Shown in pieces: positions 11,790 through 37,919 of a DNA stretch of 64,000 bases. Below the pieces are notes generated by a model. The model was not told where the DNA came from and did not search any database. It saw only the letters and a list, made by a program, of their open reading frames with translations. The stretch covers positions 248,001 to 312,000 of the forward strand of contig NZ_QKLU01000001.1 of NCBI RefSeq assembly GCF_003208655.1, written 5' to 3'. Position numbers and translations under genes: made by a program. How positions within the stretch are numbered: the first letter of the stretch is position 1; each line of letters begins with the position of its first letter. The stretch comes from Pedobacter nutrimenti. Lineage in GTDB: Bacteria; Bacteroidota; Bacteroidia; Sphingobacteriales; Sphingobacteriaceae.

Positions 11790-12108
11790 TTACTAAAAAT
11801 TATATGATTTTTTTATTAGAGTGATTTTAATTATTTATTTATTTGTATATTTTTTCTTAAACGATTTTTTTTATGTTTTTTGTATTCTTAAAGGGAAATA
11901 TATTTTTTAATTGTGTTTTAAGTTTCTTTTATTGTAATTGTTGCTGGTGATTTGTGAAGTTTATTTTAATGGATGACCATGCTATATTGATTGTGGGGCC
12001 TGTTTTTTACATCAGGTTCCCCCAATTGTTCATATTTACCCACGATTAGTCTATCTTTTCCTGCGGTTAAGCAAGTAAATTGTATGCCTTTAAGGTCCTG
12101 ATATTTAT
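11790..12108. other. AT-rich intergenic spacer (319 bp)
   Basis: No reading frame of use is visible. The left half is strongly AT-rich with T runs and should hold the promoter of the acyltransferase gene, which reads left. The right half turns to ordinary composition and must hold the promoter of the AraC gene at 12109. I see no convincing hairpin or -7 box to place either precisely. Confidence 0.4.
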
Positions 12109-12963
12109 ATGAAGCAAAAACCAGAGATTCCAATACATCACCTGCAGGAGCGTGCAGTGAAAAATTACGAGATAACTACCCTGGAAGGGTTTAAAAGGCT
12201 TGCGCACTGGAACCAGGCACACCGCGATGACAATTACCTGTTTATCTTTCAGTACGGCGGATCAACTAAAATGATGGTCGATTTTCAGGAAATCGTATTG
12301 TCCGGATGCGTGGTTTATTGCATTCTTCCGGGGCAGGTACATTATGGAATTTTTTCACATCAGGCTTCAGCCTGGGTGCTGGCTGCGGATGCTGCCTGGA
12401 TTAAGGAAAAATACCGCACCGTGTTTACAGAATTTGCGATTAAAAATAAACCGGTTTCTTTGAATTCTTCCCGATGTAAATTGCTTAGGGAAAGTTTTAC
12501 GCTACTCAGCCATATGGACCAGCAAATTTCCAAAAATCCAAATGATCAGACGCTGAATGCGATGCTTGAGGTTTGCATCTGCCTATTTGTAGCAGCCTGC
12601 AGAGGTGATCTTGATGCCACTGTCTCTGTTGTGCTGCGACCGCAACTGATCACCAGGCAATTCAGGGGCTTGCTGCTGCTGAGTTTTCGGGAAATGAAAA
12701 GCCCCAGGGAATATGCCGCCGCACTTCACATCTCGGCATCCTATCTTAATGAGGTGGTTAAAGATACAACAGGTTATCCGGTGAGCTACTGGATACAACA
12801 GGAAATCGTTCTTGAAGCTAAACGTATGCTCTTTTATACGGACCATACCGTGAAAGAAATTGCGTATCGGCTTGGCTATTTGGAAACGCCCTACTTTATC
12901 CGGCTTTTTACTAAAACCACAGGTATTTCCCCGCTGCGCTTTCGAAATAACTCCCGCAAATAG
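12109..12963 (+). CDS. AraC-family transcriptional regulator
   Basis: The 284-residue protein has an N-terminal cupin-like sensing part (residues 40-120, with IFQYGGSTKMMVDF and CILPGQVHYGIFS). Its C-terminal AraC domain contains YAAALHISASYLNEVVKDTTG and IAYRLGYLETPYFIRLFTK. It is followed after 140 bp by a siderophore-interacting flavoprotein gene and then an amidohydrolase on the same strand. It may control these, but the spacer is long enough for a separate promoter. Confidence 0.9.
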   Translation: MKQKPEIPIHHLQERAVKNYEITTLEGFKRLAHWNQAHRDDNYLFIFQYGGSTKMMVDFQEIVLSGCVVYCILPGQVHYGIFSHQASAWVLAADAAWIKEKYRTVFTEFAIKNKPVSLNSSRCKLLRESFTLLSHMDQQISKNPNDQTLNAMLEVCICLFVAACRGDLDATVSVVLRPQLITRQFRGLLLLSFREMKSPREYAAALHISASYLNEVVKDTTGYPVSYWIQQEIVLEAKRMLFYTDHTVKEIAYRLGYLETPYFIRLFTKTTGISPLRFRNNSRK

Positions 12964-16660: not shown

Positions 16661-16724
16661 GGATTACCTCGCTGTGTTTGCTGATCCCTGAAGAGGGAGG
16701 CTTCGGCTCTTGTTTTTTCTTCTG
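16661..16724 (+). repeat. Dispersed GC-rich repeat, copy 1
   Basis: It begins GGATTACCTCGCTGTG, continues CTGATCCCTGAAGAGGGAGG and ends in CTTCGGCTCTTG plus T-rich sequence. Related copies start at 21827, 25635, 25711, 25817 and 37544, all in the same orientation. It lies in the 180-bp spacer between the DUF1963 and epoxide hydrolase genes. Confidence 0.85.
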
Positions 16725-16740
16725 ATTTTAAAATAACACG

Positions 16741-17880
16741 TTAATGCTCATAGACCAATCCTGAAAAAAAATTTATAATATCTTTTGAAAGTAATTCTGG
16801 CTGTTCCATTGCAGCAAAGTGCCCGCCAGCAGGCATTGTTGTCCAATGTTGGATATTATTAAAACCTCTCTCTATATATGACCGGGGCGGAGTGGGCAAT
16901 TCTTTTGGAAATTTAGCAAAGCCAAGGGGTACTGTTACCTGCTCATTTTTTTTAAATACCAATGGATTCTTACTGTTTTCGTTATAAATACGCATAGAAG
17001 AATGTATGGTTTGGGTGATCCAGTATAAGGTAATATTGGCAAGCAGCTCATCTTTGGTAAAACTATTTTCAATATTTCCGTTATGATCACTCCAACCTTT
17101 GAATTTTTCAACGATCCATGCGCATAGTCCAACAGGAGAATCATTTAGCCCATAAGCAGCTGTCAGTGGTTTGGTAGCTTGTATAGAAGCATAGGCGCCT
17201 TCCCTTGCAGACCACTCCGCTCCAGCTTTCTGAAAAGCTAAAATCTCCTCAGAAAGCCGCTCTCCATCTGCTATATAAGGTTTATAAGAACCAGAGATGT
17301 AGTTAAGGTGCAAACCAATAATAGGAGATGGATATTTTAAAGACAACCATGTGCTGATCCCCGAACCTATATCACCACCTTGTGCTCCATAACGTTGATA
17401 CCCAAGTTCCATCATTAACTGATGCCAAATGTCGGCAACAAATTCGCTGTCGCAACCGGGATGAATAATTTTACCAGAAAAGCCAAATCCTGGAACAGAA
17501 GGGATAACCAAGTCAAAAGAAAAGTAAGGGTCTTCAGTCAACAGGGGTATAAGTTTCACCATTTCCAGAAATGATCCAGGCCATCCATGGGTAATTATCA
17601 ATGGTACTGATCGCTTACCCTTTCCTTTGATGTGCATAAAATGAATCTGATGCCCATCAATATCAGCCATGAAATTGGGATAAGAATTGATTTCAGTTTC
17701 AACTTTTCGCCAATCAAATGTTTTCTGCCAGTACTCAACCAATTCTTTCAAGTAAGAAAGATCAGTACCATAATTCCATTCAGATCCTGTTATCTGATCT
17801 GGCCATCGGGTTAGATCTAACCTTAATTTTAGATCATCCAAAACTTGTTGTGAAACATGGACTGAAAATGGTTTAATCAT
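16741..17880 (-). CDS. Epoxide hydrolase (EHN-type, juvenile-hormone epoxide hydrolase-like)
   Basis: The 379-residue protein starts with the epoxide hydrolase N-terminal domain (PFSVHVSQQVLDDLKLRLDL). The alpha/beta hydrolase core follows: HGWPG at 98-102, nucleophile Asp170 in QGGDIGS in place of the usual Ser, and catalytic His354 in GGHFAAMEQPE. An Asp nucleophile marks hydration of epoxides through a covalent ester. From this ATG the protein is cytosolic. Immediately upstream lies a twin-arginine leader in another frame (see next entry). The gene is last in a minus-strand run with an alpha/beta hydrolase, an MFS exporter and an MBL-fold hydrolase, which suggests catabolism or detoxification of a small organic compound. 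Confidence 0.88.
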   Translation of the reverse strand: MIKPFSVHVSQQVLDDLKLRLDLTRWPDQITGSEWNYGTDLSYLKELVEYWQKTFDWRKVETEINSYPNFMADIDGHQIHFMHIKGKGKRSVPLIITHGWPGSFLEMVKLIPLLTEDPYFSFDLVIPSVPGFGFSGKIIHPGCDSEFVADIWHQLMMELGYQRYGAQGGDIGSGISTWLSLKYPSPIIGLHLNYISGSYKPYIADGERLSEEILAFQKAGAEWSAREGAYASIQATKPLTAAYGLNDSPVGLCAWIVEKFKGWSDHNGNIENSFTKDELLANITLYWITQTIHSSMRIYNENSKNPLVFKKNEQVTVPLGFAKFPKELPTPPRSYIERGFNNIQHWTTMPAGGHFAAMEQPELLSKDIINFFSGLVYEH

Positions 17881-18001
17881 CTTGGCAGGTGTTGAAAGCT
17901 CTATAAATGAATGATTTGTTTTTTGTGATAAAAGGTAGCGAAAAACCGATTAAGGTTAAGCTGCTCTTTCTAATTAATTTCCGTCTGGTTAGATGATTCA
18001 T
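17873..18001 (-). pseudogene. Out-of-frame Tat signal leader of the epoxide hydrolase
   Basis: A 42-codon frame starting MNHLTRRKLIRKSSLTLIGF shows a twin-arginine motif and a hydrophobic core, then ends at a stop that overlaps the epoxide hydrolase ATG. Reading through the T6 run at 17919-17924 (A6 on the coding strand) with one base fewer would join the leader in frame to the hydrolase, giving TKTNHSFIELSTPAKMIKPF across the junction. The leader alone would be useless as a protein. It is therefore a genuine frameshift, a slippage site or a sequencing error. The preceding gene ends at 18045, leaving a normal 43-bp spacer to this start. Confidence 0.7.
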
Positions 18002-18044
18002 TGGCATAAATTCAATCCTATATTGAAATAGTCCTAAGGTCAAT

Positions 18045-18743
18045 TTATTCGGATGATTTTGCAGCTTCAAGAATCAACTGAGCTACTTCTTGAGGTCTGG
18101 AAGCTAATGAAAAATGGCTGGCTTCTAAATAAATTATTTTTTTAGATTTCATTCTTTCTGCCATTTCTCTCTGTGTTTCTGGCAAAATCATATGATCGTT
18201 TGAAGACACCTGATACCAGGTTGGTTTATTCTGCCAGGCAGGATTGCCCATTATTCCATCAAAACATTTACTATGGATTGGTTTTTGTGCCAAGGACGCC
18301 ACTAGGGCATCAGCTTCATTTAAATCATGACAAAAACTTTTATGGTGCTCATCATATTTAATCCACAAAAATCCCTTGCTATCAGGGTATATGCTCGTTC
18401 TTCCAGCCGGCTGCTCTATCTTTTCTGCTGATATACTTCTTAAACTCTCTCCTTTGTCAGGTGCAAATGCGGCAACATAAACCATACCTACTACCTTGTC
18501 ATTATTTCCGGCACCAGAAATCACTGCCCCCCCATACGAATGACCCACCAACAAAACCTTGCCATCTTGCGCATCAATTAAATCGTTTGTTTTTTGGATA
18601 TCGTCCTCTAAAGAGGTTAAGGGATTTTGTACACTCCTGACTTTATATCCTTCTTTGTGCAACAGCGGAATAATGTATCTCCAATTAGAGCCGTCCGACC
18701 ATGCTCCATGTACCAATATAATGGTTAAATTTTTTGTTTTCAT
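18045..18743 (-). CDS. Alpha/beta hydrolase (esterase EstC / hydroxynitrile lyase-like group)
   Basis: The 232-residue protein lacks a signal peptide. It shows VHGAWSDGSNW at 11-21, VGHSYGGAV with nucleophile Ser69, and a C-terminal His210 in EASHFSLAS. It belongs to the plant-like salicylate esterase/EstC group of short alpha/beta hydrolases. Its ATG overlaps the stop of the MFS gene (ATGA, 4 bp), so it is translationally coupled to it and is probably co-expressed with the epoxide hydrolase downstream. Confidence 0.88.
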   Translation of the reverse strand: MKTKNLTIILVHGAWSDGSNWRYIIPLLHKEGYKVRSVQNPLTSLEDDIQKTNDLIDAQDGKVLLVGHSYGGAVISGAGNNDKVVGMVYVAAFAPDKGESLRSISAEKIEQPAGRTSIYPDSKGFLWIKYDEHHKSFCHDLNEADALVASLAQKPIHSKCFDGIMGNPAWQNKPTWYQVSSNDHMILPETQREMAERMKSKKIIYLEASHFSLASRPQEVAQLILEAAKSSE

Positions 18744-19951
18744 TTTTTGATTTTTATTAATTTTTTTGATTTTATTCTTTCATCTATAGCTTGTTTATGG
18801 CGGCTTGGGAATGCAAACTTACGCCCCATAGCCACCAGCGAAATCACGATAACCATTAACAGGAAACTTGTCCATGGTATTGCGCCCGGACCTGTATAAT
18901 CCAAAATCAACCCACCTATAAATGCCCCGGAAAAAACGCCTATATTATAAACAGTTACAGTAATGGAACTTCCTATTTCAGGAAGCCCCTTTGCCGCATT
19001 GATAGTTGCGGTTTGCAATAGCGAGGGCAGGCCCCCGAAGGAAATGCCCCAGAATACAATACATGTATAGAAAACAAAATAAAAATGAGCTGCCAAAGAA
19101 ATGATAAATAATGCACTCGCTCCCAGAAGTATGAATAATAGTAAAGTGGATCTCCTATGAGTATCAATAAATCTTGCAGTAATGAGAATTCCCAGCACCG
19201 CCCCGATACCGAATAATCCTAAAGCAAGACCTGCATTGTCTTTAATTCCATTAGTGACCATGATTGGCGACAGATAAGTGTAGGTTACATAAATAGCAAG
19301 TGAGGTTGTAAATGTTGTGGCCATGACCAGAAATACACCTGGCATTTTGAATAGCTTAACGGGTATGTCCATCTTCTTTTCATCAGCTTTAACGCCAGGA
19401 ATTTTCCATGCTATCCACACAAGGAGTATAAATATCAATGCAGACAAGGCTGCAAAAGTGCCCCGCCACCCGATAATCTGACCTAAAAAAGCGCCTATTG
19501 GCAGTCCAAGGGAAAGCGCAATCGTACTGCCGGCCATGACCATTGATATGGCCTTCCCTGTATTGTTTTCATTCACCAATCTCGCTGCATAACCAGCCAT
19601 GAGCGGCCATAGGATACCACCAAAACCTCCCGCCAATATTCGCATTATTACGGTAACCCAGTAGTTTTGTGAAAAAGTGGTAATGACATTTGACAAAAAA
19701 AAGCCGAAAATAACAGCTAGCAGCAAAGGCTTACGGGAGAGATTTCTTGTTAATGTGGTAGCGGGAAAAGCTGTTAAAACTGTACCTAGCGCATAATAGG
19801 AAACCAGTCTTCCTATACTTGAAGCATGAACTTGTAGATCAGTCGCCATATCAAGCAGGAGGCCTGCAGGCAGAAGCTCTGTTAAGATCGCTGAAAAAGC
19901 AACCATTGTGAAAGCTAACAACGAAAAGAAAGGAAATTTTTCTCTTGACAT
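18740..19951 (-). CDS. MFS transporter (AraJ/YdhP-like drug or metabolite exporter)
   Basis: I start it at the ATG of MSREKFPFFS (403 residues). A GTG at 19966 is in frame but overlaps the previous gene. Twelve hydrophobic segments are visible. The N-terminal half contains TELLPAGLLLDMATDL and RLVSYYALGTVLTAFP, which resemble the DHA1-type efflux carriers AraJ, YdhP and YdeA. It starts 8 bp after the MBL-fold gene and overlaps the next hydrolase by 4 bp, so the three are tightly coupled. Export of a toxic compound or its breakdown product is a reasonable reading. Confidence 0.88.
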   Translation of the reverse strand: MSREKFPFFSLLAFTMVAFSAILTELLPAGLLLDMATDLQVHASSIGRLVSYYALGTVLTAFPATTLTRNLSRKPLLLAVIFGFFLSNVITTFSQNYWVTVIMRILAGGFGGILWPLMAGYAARLVNENNTGKAISMVMAGSTIALSLGLPIGAFLGQIIGWRGTFAALSALIFILLVWIAWKIPGVKADEKKMDIPVKLFKMPGVFLVMATTFTTSLAIYVTYTYLSPIMVTNGIKDNAGLALGLFGIGAVLGILITARFIDTHRRSTLLLFILLGASALFIISLAAHFYFVFYTCIVFWGISFGGLPSLLQTATINAAKGLPEIGSSITVTVYNIGVFSGAFIGGLILDYTGPGAIPWTSFLLMVIVISLVAMGRKFAFPSRHKQAIDERIKSKKLIKIKK

Positions 19952-19959
19952 TTTTTTTA

Positions 19960-20766
19960 TTACCACAATTCAAACCAATCACCTGGTTCTTTAACCATAA
20001 TACCTGTTTTTAAATTTGTTAAGCTGGCACTCAATCGCTCTACCGGGTTTGAAGTCTCCATATAGATAGGAGGGTTATGCATGGTATGGTAATGTATTGG
20101 AACTACAAAGTCGGTCTTAAGGATGTTTGCGGCTACAGCTGCCTGCTCCGGAGTCATTACAGCTTCAATTGAACTCATTGGCCTAAGTGGTGGAAAATCT
20201 ACAATGGGGGCATTTATTGGCAGGAATCCAACATTGAAGGGGCCAAATCTGTGAAAAATTCTCCACCACAAACCATGATACAAGGTGTCTCCGGCATGAA
20301 TGATTCTAAATCCCCCGCACTCTACAACCCAGCTGAGCTGGGGATCTCCGAATCCATCAACAGCAGGCACCGAAAAAATCCGAAACGGCCCGACTTTTCT
20401 TTCTTCCCACTCCCGGACAATTTCAGTTCTGAGTTTGTACTTATTAAATTCGAGCTCGGCATGCTTTGTCAGTGCCAGATCAGCATCATTGCCCATGGCG
20501 GCAATCGGTCTAAAAACCGGCGCACCTTTACTAAGGGCCACATTTAATGCCCCAGGGTCTGCGTGGTCATTGTGTAAATGCGTTAATAGCGCGACTGAGG
20601 CTGCGCCTGGTTTAGACGATGCCGGAAACCGCTCGGCAGGATTACGCATCATCGCCAACTGCGAAATATCTTGAACATAATCTATCAAAAGCGTTTCACC
20701 TGCACACTCTATTTCCACTCCGGCCCAACCCAGTCTCCGCATCCTAACTTTTTCCTCAGTACCCAT
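19960..20766 (-). CDS. MBL-fold metal-dependent hydrolase (UlaG-like)
   Basis: The 268-residue protein carries the zinc motif HLHNDHAD, with His63, His65, Asp67 and His68. It also has HAGDTLYHG near residue 145 and a terminal VPIHYHTMHNPP near 222, typical of the UlaG/RomA branch of the metallo-beta-lactamase fold. Lactones, phosphodiesters and N-acyl lipids are known substrates of this branch, so no exact reaction is offered. It is the first gene of the MBL-MFS-hydrolase-epoxide hydrolase run. The AraC gene upstream (135 bp) points the same way. Confidence 0.87.
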   Translation of the reverse strand: MGTEEKVRMRRLGWAGVEIECAGETLLIDYVQDISQLAMMRNPAERFPASSKPGAASVALLTHLHNDHADPGALNVALSKGAPVFRPIAAMGNDADLALTKHAELEFNKYKLRTEIVREWEERKVGPFRIFSVPAVDGFGDPQLSWVVECGGFRIIHAGDTLYHGLWWRIFHRFGPFNVGFLPINAPIVDFPPLRPMSSIEAVMTPEQAAVAANILKTDFVVPIHYHTMHNPPIYMETSNPVERLSASLTNLKTGIMVKEPGDWFELW

Positions 20767-20901
20767 AATTTTTTCTCATTTTTTATTGACAAGGCAAATG
20801 TGCAGGTAAAAAAGGAGCTGTTGATAGGCAGATATTCCTTAAAAGTTAGCAATTCTTCCTGTGCCGGGTAAACGGAAATACTATAGGGATTAAAGAAGGG
20901 T

Positions 20902-21741
20902 TTACTTGTGCTGCGAGGCGCATTTATCACGGTATTGAATGGGAGATATGCCTTCTCTATTGCGAAAAAACCGACTAAATGTCTGAAGATCATTGTAGCC
21001 CAATTGATGGGCAATTTCCTTGATGGAGGAGTTGCTGTAATTAATCTGCCTTCTGGCATGGATCATAATCCTGTCATGGATAATTTCACGTGGAGTACGT
21101 TTCAAGATAACAGAAAATAAATTGGCCAGTGTTTTTGGTGATTTGTTTAATTTTGACGCATAAAAAGCAACATCATGGTGTTTGAGGAAGTGGGAGTCGA
21201 CCAGATAATTAAATTCCCTGATGATATCTAGTTGTTTTTTCTCCAGGTCTTGTAAATAGGTGGATTTAGTTAAAATCCTGACAGAGAGAATTAGCATTCT
21301 CTTAAGCATAGTTTCCAACATTTCTTTCTTCAGGAGACTTTCCTTAAGCATTTCCTTGGAGAAAATTTTCCATGAAGTCTCAAAATCCTCAACTTCATTT
21401 GCATTTAAAAGCAGCCTTGGGACGTGTGTGGCACTATAAAACAACAATCCTTTGCTTCCCACCTGGCTATCTTGATCAATCATGCAAAAAAAAGATTTAT
21501 TGAACCGAATCATACGGGCACTACAGAGCCTTACATCATCGATTTTGTGAAATTCCGTTAAAAAGATAATCTCATTTTTTGCAAGTTGATAAGGAACCTT
21601 ATCAATGGTTATTGCTAAACTGTCTGCTGTATTCCAGATAAAAGTCTTGTCCAATTTCCGGGCCTGAAAAACACTATCCTGATTTTCACTATCAAGTTCA
21701 GTAAGGCTGAGAAATTCTTTCGAATCGTTTTCGAAAACCAT
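20902..21741 (-). CDS. AraC-family transcriptional regulator
   Basis: The 279-residue protein has a poorly conserved N-terminal sensing domain (residues 20-120) and a clear C-terminal AraC domain with VAFYASKLNKSPKTLANLFS and IAHQLGYNDLQTFSRFFRNR. It reads in the same direction as the MBL-MFS-hydrolase genes 135 bp downstream and is the obvious candidate to control them. The 135-bp spacer probably holds the operon promoter. Confidence 0.9.
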   Translation of the reverse strand: MVFENDSKEFLSLTELDSENQDSVFQARKLDKTFIWNTADSLAITIDKVPYQLAKNEIIFLTEFHKIDDVRLCSARMIRFNKSFFCMIDQDSQVGSKGLLFYSATHVPRLLLNANEVEDFETSWKIFSKEMLKESLLKKEMLETMLKRMLILSVRILTKSTYLQDLEKKQLDIIREFNYLVDSHFLKHHDVAFYASKLNKSPKTLANLFSVILKRTPREIIHDRIMIHARRQINYSNSSIKEIAHQLGYNDLQTFSRFFRNREGISPIQYRDKCASQHK

Positions 21742-22097
21742 GATTACAAATATAACTCCGTTTTTGAAATAGTCAAGTACCTGACACCATTTGTCGGTCC
21801 TGGTGCCATTTTGTTTTGAGGAGATAGGATTACCGCGCTGTGCCCGGTGGTCCCTAAGGGGAGGAGGCTTCAGTTTATTTTTTAAACGCCGCTTTAATAG
21901 GACGTGTGGATGGTTTGTGGTTGTTCACTCAACCGATCTTAAATTTCTTTTCATAGCTGCAAACGCTATGTCCCTGATCTATATGTTAAATTCTTATTTA
22001 TGCTATGAATTTGGTTTCTATAACTGAATTCACAGTCAGAGGGTCTGTTCTCACAGTGTGCTTTTTTTGGCAATATGTCCGTATTTAATTTTGGACT
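21742..22097. other. Intergenic region (356 bp) between AraC and TlpA genes
   Basis: This spacer holds copy 2 of the dispersed repeat (21827-21890) and the divergent promoters of the AraC gene and the thioredoxin-like gene. I find no convincing gene. The sequence TTTGTTTTGAGGAGATAGG just before the repeat has no start codon at a useful distance. Confidence 0.5.
21827..21890 (+). repeat. Dispersed GC-rich repeat, copy 2
   Basis: It reads GGATTACCGCGCTGTGCCCG, then GTGGTCCCTAAGGGGAGGAG and GCTTCAGTTTATTTTTT. It is the most diverged copy in the window yet keeps the paired GGATTACC/GGTGGTCC stem and the GGAGG-CTTCAG tail. Confidence 0.8.
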
Positions 22098-25634: not shown

Positions 25635-25858
25635 GGATTACCTCGCTGTGCTCTCGGTTCAGATTTTCTTTCTTTCTTTTGGGGAAATTTTTGGGTTAGT
25701 ATTTTGTTAGGGATTACCTCGCTGTGCTCAGGGATTACGTTGACGTACTCGGTGCAGATTTTCTTTCTTTCTTTCTTTCTTTCTTTGGGGAGATTTTTGG
25801 GTTAGTATTTTGTGAGGGATTACCTCGCTGTGCTCGGTGATCCCTGAGGGGGGAGGCT
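25635..25858 (+). repeat. Dispersed repeat copies 3-5 in tandem with TTTC microsatellites
   Basis: GGATTACCTCGCTGTGCTC occurs at 25635, 25711 and 25817. Between the copies are CAGATTTTC followed by TTTC runs (25670-25680 and 25759-25786), then a TTTTTGGGTTAGTATTTTGT spacer. The unit repeats with periods of 76 and 106 bp. Only the last copy carries the full GGTGATCCCTGAGGGGGGAG and GCTTCAG tail and then runs into the tRNA-linked palindrome. The 409-bp stretch from 25587 to 25995 holds no gene. Confidence 0.85.
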
Positions 25859-25860
25859 TC

Positions 25861-25996
25861 AGCTTATTTTTTTACAAATGCTGCGTCGCTACGCTCCCTG
25901 GCATTTTTTATTTCAGATGCTCTCCCGAATGAATTCGGGTCGCCATGAAATAAAAAATGCCGCCCTTCGGGGCAGCATTTGTAAAAAAAATAAGCT
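25861..25996. repeat. Nested palindrome abutting tRNA-Ser copy A
   Basis: The outer arms (25861-25884 and 25972-25996) are complementary over 24 bp apart from one extra A. The inner arms (about 25900-25913 and 25945-25960) carry GGCATTTTTTATTTCA and its complement, and a smaller CCCGAATGAATTCGGG palindrome sits near 25924-25939. The right outer arm touches the CCA end of the tRNA gene. In the tRNA transcript it would fold as a long hairpin with a U-rich arm, so it could serve as terminator or processing signal. Confidence 0.85.
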
Positions 25997-26083
25997 GGCG
26001 GAGAGTGAGGGATTCGAACCCCCGGAGCTATTACACTCAACAGTTTTCAAGACTGCCGCAATCGACCACTCTGCCAACTCTCC
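25996..26083 (-). tRNA. tRNA-Ser (anticodon TGA), copy A
   Basis: The 88-nt gene reads GGAGAGTTGGCAGAGTGG at its 5' end and closes with ACTCTCC, discriminator G and an encoded CCA. The acceptor stem is 7 perfect pairs. The anticodon loop is CTTGAAA with TGA at 26047-26049. There is a long variable arm as expected for serine, and the T loop is TTCGAAT. It is identical to the copy at 37722-37809. Confidence 0.97.
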
Positions 26084-26087
26084 GGCG

Positions 26088-26117
26088 CAAAAGTACAAAT
26101 CCTGCTTGATTTTGCAA
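26088..26117 (-). promoter_or_regulatory. Promoter of tRNA-Ser copy A
   Basis: On the minus strand, TTG (in TTTGCAAAA), exactly 19 nt, then TACTTTTG (26095-26088) fit the Bacteroidota -33/-7 consensus. The -7 box ends 4 bases from the tRNA 5' end, so the leader is only a few bases. The same boxes and spacing precede copy B, although the spacer between them has diverged. Confidence 0.85.
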
Positions 26118-26436
26118 ATTCTGATTTGCTATTCTCTTTATTGGGGCTGATCCTCAGTGAATTTAAATTCATTTTTACTTCTGAAATTGGCTTTTTATCC
26201 GATTGAGCACTTCTGTCGCGCTAATTTTTTCAGCTTAATTATACGCCAGGCTAAATTTTAAATATATTTCATTTTTCTTGTAACGATTTATCCGTTACGT
26301 ATACTTATTGGGTGTAAAATTTTTTAAAGGGCCCTGAAAACAAAAAATGAATGCAAATCAAAAGAGGATGATCATTTTAAATGTGTCGTAAACCAGTTTT
26401 TAAAAAAAATTATATAATGGACTAAATACATAAAGA
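26118..26436. other. Intergenic region before the sigma factor gene
   Basis: No gene is visible in this 319-bp stretch. It contains GTAACG (26280-26285) and CGTTAC (26293-26298), an inverted repeat across a 7-nt gap, followed by GTATACTTATT. TAAC and CGT-type elements are typical of ECF sigma promoters, so an autoregulated promoter is possible. The spacing between AAC and CGT is shorter than usual, which weakens this. Confidence 0.35.
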
Positions 26437-37314: not shown

Positions 37315-37377
37315 GGGAGTTTTTTTGGGTGGTTATTTTCTTTCTTTTGGGTTCTTGTTTTGGTTGCTTGCTTACAG

Positions 37378-37500
37378 GGCTTGTTTTTCTTTTTTGGTGT
37401 TCATTTTCTTGGTTAGTTGCTTAGGGGGCTTGTTTTTCTTTTTTGGTGTTCATTTTCTTGGTTAATTGCTTAGGGGGCTTGTTTTTTCTTTCTTTTTTTT
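37378..37500 (+). repeat. 49-bp tandem repeat
   Basis: Units start at 37378, 37427 and 37476 (GGCTTGTTTTTC...). The first two are full length and differ from each other in a single base near their ends. The third breaks off into a T-rich run. The unit is T- and G-rich on this strand and lies between the amidohydrolase stop and dispersed repeat copy 6. The 407-bp region 37315-37721 holds no gene. Confidence 0.85.
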
Positions 37501-37543: not shown

Positions 37544-37587
37544 GGATTACCTCGCTGTGCTCGGTGATCCCTGAGGGGGGAGGCTTC
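37544..37587 (+). repeat. Dispersed GC-rich repeat, copy 6
   Basis: It begins GGATTACCTCGCTGTGCTCG and continues with GTGATCCCTGAGGGGGGAGG before CTTCAGC, identical in this core to copy 5 at 25817. It lies next to a second nested palindrome and a second tRNA-Ser gene. Confidence 0.88.
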
Positions 37588-37722
37588 AGCTTGTTTTTTT
37601 ACAAATGCTGCGTCGCTGCGCTCCCGGGCATTTTTTATTTCAGATGCTCCCCCGAATGAATTCGGGTCGCCCTGAAATAAAAAATGCCGCCCTTCGGGGC
37701 AGCATTTGTAAAAAAATAAGCT
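37588..37722. repeat. Nested palindrome abutting tRNA-Ser copy B
   Basis: The outer arms (37588-37611 and 37699-37722) are complementary over 24 bp with one G:T-type mismatch. The inner arms carry GGCATTTTTTATTTCAG and its exact complement. Compared with copy A, the inner stem is one pair longer and the loop bases differ, so pairing is kept while loops vary. Confidence 0.85.
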
Positions 37723-37809
37723 GGCGGAGAGTGAGGGATTCGAACCCCCGGAGCTATTACACTCAACAGTTTTCAAGACTGCCGCAATCGACCACTCTGC
37801 CAACTCTCC
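37722..37809 (-). tRNA. tRNA-Ser (anticodon TGA), copy B
   Basis: This copy is identical over 88 nt to the gene at 25996-26083, with encoded CCA, 7-bp acceptor stem, long variable arm and anticodon TGA at 37773-37775. Two genes for the same anticodon in one 12-kb stretch reflect a duplication that includes both flanks. Confidence 0.97.
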
Positions 37810-37813
37810 GGCG

Positions 37814-37843
37814 CAAAAGTACAAATACAGACTGGTTTTGCAA
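37814..37843 (-). promoter_or_regulatory. Promoter of tRNA-Ser copy B
   Basis: On the minus strand, TTG (in TTTGCAAAA), 19 nt, then TACTTTTG (37821-37814) match the -33/-7 boxes of copy A at the same spacing, while the bases in between differ at several places. This conservation marks the two boxes as functional. Confidence 0.85.
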
Positions 37844-37919
37844 ATTATGATGTAGATTTTTTAATGTAAACTTGATAACAACTTAAAACAGAGCATGAAA
37901 AAATGTGTTTTAAAGTTCG

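Follow-up and report, generated by a model that had tools for sequence, protein, structure and literature searches.

Two identical tRNA-Ser(TGA) genes in a 64,000-nucleotide stretch of Pedobacter nutrimenti DNA (the window) are each followed directly by what is probably a non-coding, non-autonomous integrative element of about 145-195 bp, which uses the 3' end of a tRNA gene, mainly tRNA-Ser, as its attachment site. Recombination in the T-arm/acceptor end would put the element directly behind the tRNA and restore the tRNA intact, and the original tRNA 3' end would remain beyond the right hairpin, as a direct repeat. The tRNA would then be terminated at the element's first hairpin, and the remainder would be a DNA palindrome whose arms vary freely while staying complementary. 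The unit is non-coding and too short for an integrase gene, and no integrase lies beside most copies. Thus, we infer mobilisation in trans, most likely by tyrosine integrases of islands at the same tRNA ends. The mobilising enzyme, a circular intermediate and current activity are presumed parts of this model; neither a circular form nor a transposition event was seen.

The ~325-bp modules around the two genes are 96% identical in a pairwise comparison within the window. As the initial annotation had noted, the tRNA and the promoter boxes (-33 box ATTTGCAAAA, -7 box TACTTTTG) are the same in both modules and the inter-box spacer differs. Behind each CCA, without a gap, lie a nested palindrome of ~138 bp, which indeed touches the CCA end (it starts at the first base after it), then GAAGCCTCCCCCC, then a 28-bp hairpin, P6 (Table 1). 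Palindrome and P6 form one element of ~178 bp. The GC-rich repeat that had been described as a feature of its own near each tRNA is P6, and is real (four matches within 3 mismatches in the window, and not even one in window shuffles) but part of this element. As single-stranded DNA the palindromes fold at -45 to -47 kcal/mol (z about -10 and -9.5; no shuffle as good). With gathering and E-value thresholds, the Rfam library gave only tRNA/tmRNA above gathering scores in the window, and on seven phylum-wide loci no family likewise reached its gathering score on the element. A genome search found the full element at these two sites only. In element A the right-hand tRNA-end repeat has decayed to about 10 bp; full-length repeats occur in relatives. 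Beyond both elements there are CTTT-rich low-complexity stretches and short repeats (25660-25790 and 37330-37500).

Table 1. Features of the two tRNA-Ser(TGA) loci and of the element remnants in the window
Feature	Position	Strand	Detail and basis
tRNA-Ser(TGA), copy A	25996..26083	-	CCA encoded; ARAGORN, Rfam
tRNA-Ser(TGA), copy B	37722..37809	-	ancestral site, behind yihY; ARAGORN, Rfam, congeneric comparison
Promoter of copy A, Bacteroidota-type	26084..26119	-	-33 box ATTTGCAAAA 26119-26110, -7 box TACTTTTG 26095-26088; read directly
Promoter of copy B	37810..37845	-	-33 box 37845-37836, -7 box 37821-37814; read directly
Element A, 179 bp	25817..25995	-	nested palindrome, GAAGCCTCCCCCC and right hairpin P6, directly after CCA
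Element B, 178 bp	37544..37721	-	
Left hairpin of element A, predicted intrinsic terminator of tRNA transcript	25955..25980	-	AAATGCTGCCCCGAAGGGCGGCATTT and T-rich tail
Left hairpin of element B, predicted terminator	37682..37707	-	
Terminator-like site facing the opposite way, element A	25844..25862	+	from GC-rich stretch and outer arm
P6 of element A	25817..25844	-	GGGATCACCGAGCACAGCGAGGTAATCC
P6 of element B	37544..37571	-	
Right-hand direct repeat	25812..25821	-	AATCCCTCAC, matches start of tRNA 3' end AATCCCTCACTCTCCGCCA (26014-25996); read directly
Decayed P6 copy behind element A	25711..25729	-	weak in profile (E 0.49), clear in sequence comparison
Decayed P6 copy	25635..25653	-	followed by AATCCCTCAC
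Right-end element remnant	21827..21872	-	profile E 8e-5
Right-end element remnant	16661..16704	-	profile E 1e-8

The near-identical modules had been read as a single duplicated module with its promoter. This does not hold, because the mobile unit begins at the tRNA 3' end and the -33/-7 boxes recur at congeneric tRNA-Ser genes whether the element is present or absent. The yihY-tRNA-Ser site (copy B) is ancestral and conserved in the genus, and is followed by many different downstream sequences: among 37 readable species, seven carry a full element, one (G007) the left hairpin only and 29 other sequence. On the yihY tree this implies at least six label changes, a count that includes the left-hairpin-only G007. 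At this site G019, G065 and G023 have an island in the element's place and element copies further on. The CCA is encoded in 7/7 element-bearing tRNAs vs 6/29 without an element (Fisher about 3e-4, computed with 6 of 28), which would be expected of an element that brings in a new tRNA end. Hairpins behind element-less tRNA-Ser genes are not all native terminators; several are the left ends of integrase-bearing islands, and therefore not all element-less genes are ancestral empty sites. Some tRNA-Ser genes (L107, L110, L167 and other congeners) have the left terminator hairpin only, perhaps a domesticated remnant.

A filled and an empty site occur within one genome, G018. At L173 the tRNA-Ser behind yihY is directly followed by AGATAGCAATATC, and at L102 a second tRNA-Ser is followed by the element, then by TCCCCCACTCTCCGC, then by the AGATAGCAATATC sequence. 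The difference is exactly 175 bp and includes a 15-bp direct repeat, TCCCCCACTCTCCGC, equal to the tRNA's own end; ~300 bp beyond the insert are nearly identical. This pair consists of two paralogous tRNA genes, and insertion of an island at the element's distal repeat is an alternative explanation for it. Behind a tRNA-Ser(GGA) in G047 there are two units of exactly 168 bp, each closed by a 19-bp AATCCCGCTCTCTCCGCCA identical to the end of that tRNA, and G068 has a pair of units similar to this array. An intact tRNA at one end and a direct-orientation 3' tRNA fragment at the other bound the elements at L102, L109, L058 and L042. Most right-hand repeats are decayed, and the repeat signal over 50 elements is modest (permutation p about 0.013). 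Taken from these comparisons, the element appears to be an insertion at the tRNA end. At L108 in G068, behind a tRNA-Ser(GCT), a longer 3' tRNA piece is repeated with a second left hairpin, which suggests a crossover further upstream in the tRNA.

P6 has the sequence GGGATCA...TAATCCC, against GGGTTCGAATCCC in the tRNA T-arm, and in fresh copies the tRNA acceptor end follows P6. The T-arm is one known crossover site of tRNA-targeting integrases (PMC4383910), and recombination there would give the observed arrangement of P6 and acceptor end.

Structural statistics were computed on 50 excised elements. Within an element, the initial 22 nt pair with the right arm, but not with the right arms of other elements (summed score 334 over 26 distinct arms, vs 223 in the best permutation; 0 of 20,000). 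Covariation points the same way: among 28 Pedobacter elements, 69 cells changed on both sides vs 24 +/- 4.6 when shuffled (0/500 as high). Irregular pairs in the left hairpin across the genus are 33 G.U vs 0 A.C on the tRNA strand, and this hairpin with its T run is predicted to be the intrinsic terminator of the tRNA transcript. In the long inner stem the counts are 31 G.U vs 27 A.C, and since this stem lacks strand bias it looks like a DNA palindrome and not like RNA from the tRNA strand.

The distribution of the element was followed in 99 congeneric genomes, searched once for the whole module and once for the element by itself. Its parts recur in the same order (145-195 bp) at the 3' ends of tRNA-Ser of three isoacceptors: TGA in many species, GCT in four genomes read and GGA in G047, and sister elements were found at both TGA and GCT genes. 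Among congeneric copies that lack a tRNA, most come after a fragment of a tRNA 3' end, apparently because an island has separated tRNA and element; others are broken by an insertion sequence. One element (G023 L101, about 12075-12958, minus strand) contains an insertion of ~0.9 kb with ends GGATCAAGTCATAAACTTGTGG / CCACAAGTTTATGGCTTGATCC, probably an insertion sequence; ends similar to these adjoin broken copies in L095 and L104.

Beyond the genus, a scan of ~85,000 species with P6 alone, a query that carries no tRNA information, returned 40 stretches. Apart from a few records without a taxon name, all are Bacteroidota (Pedobacter, Olivibacter, Dokdonia, Robiginitalea, Flavobacterium, Bacteroidales and others). 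In 34/40 a same-strand tRNA or tmRNA gene ends no more than 400 nt before P6, the partners being tRNA-Ser, -Arg, -Tyr, -Met and tmRNA; of the other six, five come after a tRNA-end fragment and the sixth extends an array. This association is not due to chance, the rate of which we estimate at no more than about 0.5%. The initial annotation had proposed looking for the palindrome at other tRNA genes, with its absence there as grounds for rejection, and had also proposed examining empty sites; the element was found at tRNA-Ser, -Arg and other tRNA genes and at a tmRNA gene across Bacteroidota, and L173 lacks the insert that L102 carries. A strict tRNA-to-P6 pattern, too strict to measure prevalence, matched only the window genome among 395 Bacteroidota genomes. 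P6 was absent from the viral contigs searched; a looser motif gave 38 matches there, two of which, identical to each other, lie behind a tRNA-Gly without a repeat, and we took these as chance. In Robiginitalea aurantiaca (L144, 1920-2091) an element lies behind a tmRNA gene, with a sequence similar to the tmRNA 3' end following P6. Tandem arrays of the right part only, with periods of roughly 50 to 130 bp, lie behind tRNA-Tyr, -Ser and -Arg in L111 (Flavobacterium MAG), L133 (Olivibacter), L120/L136 (Dokdonia) and L148 (Lentimicrobiaceae).

Islands share these tRNA ends. In G023 a gene encoding a tyrosine integrase (PF00589, PF13102, PF17293; arm-binding, SAM-like and catalytic domains) begins ~250 bp behind the tRNA; 16 kb further on comes a second copy of the tRNA end, CCCCCACTCTCCGCCA, with the element behind it. 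The order of element and island in G018 is the opposite. Relatives of the G023 integrase are absent near most element copies. In the window, remnants of the element's right end extend behind copy A as far as 16.66 kb, and the two most distant ones bracket a 5-kb gene block that two other species have at tRNA-Ser sites. The block (16.75-21.79 kb) shares 88-89% DNA identity with blocks near tRNA-Ser sites in G006 and G077, and its proteins are 86-95% identical, whereas proteins on the yihY side are mostly 74-84% identical in the same two species. Bounded by remnants and with identity above that of the yihY side, it points to an integration hotspot with traded cargo; the block (16755-21792) is best read as a traded island, more alike between species than core genes. 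Its five genes encode an AraC-type regulator, a metallo-hydrolase-like protein, an MFS protein, an alpha/beta hydrolase and one more.

Such gene blocks also bear on an alternative that we consider unlikely, namely that the element is no independent unit but a CIME-type remnant, in which loss of the interior joined the left end of a larger integrative element to its right end. Islands occupy these tRNA ends too, gene blocks such as the 5-kb one in the window and in G006 are flanked by att-like copies and remnants of the element, and CIMEs that keep only att sites are known (PMC5704250). Like CIMEs, the element is att-bounded, lacks a recombinase and stacks with islands. However, CIMEs are decayed islands, whereas the element is a uniform structured unit whose size, P6 and arm complementarity are conserved wherever it recurs in the phylum. 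Different hairpins mark the island left ends that we observed, and the loci read contain no large element that shares both ends of the unit. It is equally possible that a CIME-like remnant gave rise to the element by becoming standardised.

We find it improbable that the element is a host-owned bidirectional terminator or insulator of tRNA genes, inherited vertically, with end repeats that are by-products of tandem duplication. It does combine a terminator on the tRNA strand with a terminator-like site in the other direction, and most congeners have an ordinary terminator at its place at the yihY-tRNA-Ser site. This reading conflicts with its sporadic presence at a single orthologous site, with the precise filled/empty difference that includes a tRNA-end repeat, and with stacking with islands in either order. 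Unequal recombination might, without a recombinase, have amplified a tRNA-end-bounded unit in tandem, as could hold for the E. coli tyrT repeats. This would account for the arrays of near-identical units and fits the tandem tRNA-Ser genes in several genomes; it does not explain how the element first reached Ser, Arg, Tyr, Met and tmRNA genes, and we regard it as very unlikely. Scarcely credible is a structured RNA processed from the tRNA transcript (a trailer signal or small RNA, like RttR of E. coli). Although the location directly downstream of the tRNA and the stable fold would suit it, a strong terminator lies inside the first ~40-50 nt of the element, the long stem is unbiased and no Rfam family matches, and this reading was dropped. 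Thus, among the three roles initially offered for the palindrome, terminator (the left hairpin) and mobile unit at tRNA ends stand, and trailer-processing signal does not.

The mobile-element reading can be set beside known systems. Islands of the Islander type and IMEs such as the Bacteroides NBU elements share with it a regenerated tRNA gene, a displaced 3' fragment as endpoint and accretion at one tRNA (PMC4383910; PMC5704250); unlike them, the element is tens to hundreds of times smaller and has neither integrase nor genes. It works like the E. coli tyrT repeats, the nearest known system, by analogy and not as a claimed member. In the K-12 sequence itself, on which this comparison rests, the tyrT/tyrV (RttR RNA) units are 175/178 bp long, close to the 168 bp of G047 and the 175 bp of G018, lie behind the tRNA and are each bounded by a 19-bp tRNA-Tyr 3' end, AATCCTTCCCCCACCACCA, as are the G047 units by their 19-bp tRNA ends; at the end of the unit both systems show T in place of G before AATCC. 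They differ in phylum and tRNA, and no long outer palindrome is evident in folds of the E. coli units. The element profile has no significant similarity to K-12 tyrTV (E at least 0.2), and Rfam RtT matches neither the window nor the seven phylum-wide loci. REP/BIME sequences and MITEs are also short, palindromic, non-coding and non-autonomous, and are dispersed in intergenic DNA, REP/BIME being linked to a REP-associated tyrosine transposase; the element differs from REP/BIME in not being dispersed, given the position of P6 behind tRNA/tmRNA genes in most stretches.

Our literature searches found no description of the element. The Islander island finder rejects candidates that are shorter than 2 kb or lack an integrase (PMC4383910); islands in tRNA genes are usually sought as large elements with an integrase, and hence units this small escape such searches. 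We tentatively raise the possibility, leaning against it for now, of an unrecognised class of minimal mobile DNA: gene-free palindromes of ~170 bp that home to tRNA ends phylum-wide via a T-arm-like hairpin. Their arms would be free to vary, with recognition by shape and not by sequence, and the long-known E. coli tyrT repeats would be of this kind too. As a 170-bp insert at tRNA ends that replaces the terminator and shares its sites with islands, such a unit would be among the very small users of the attachment-site system and, if true, could explain the tRNA-end repeats of E. coli tyrT. In Bacteroidota, the element is a candidate substrate for island integrases.
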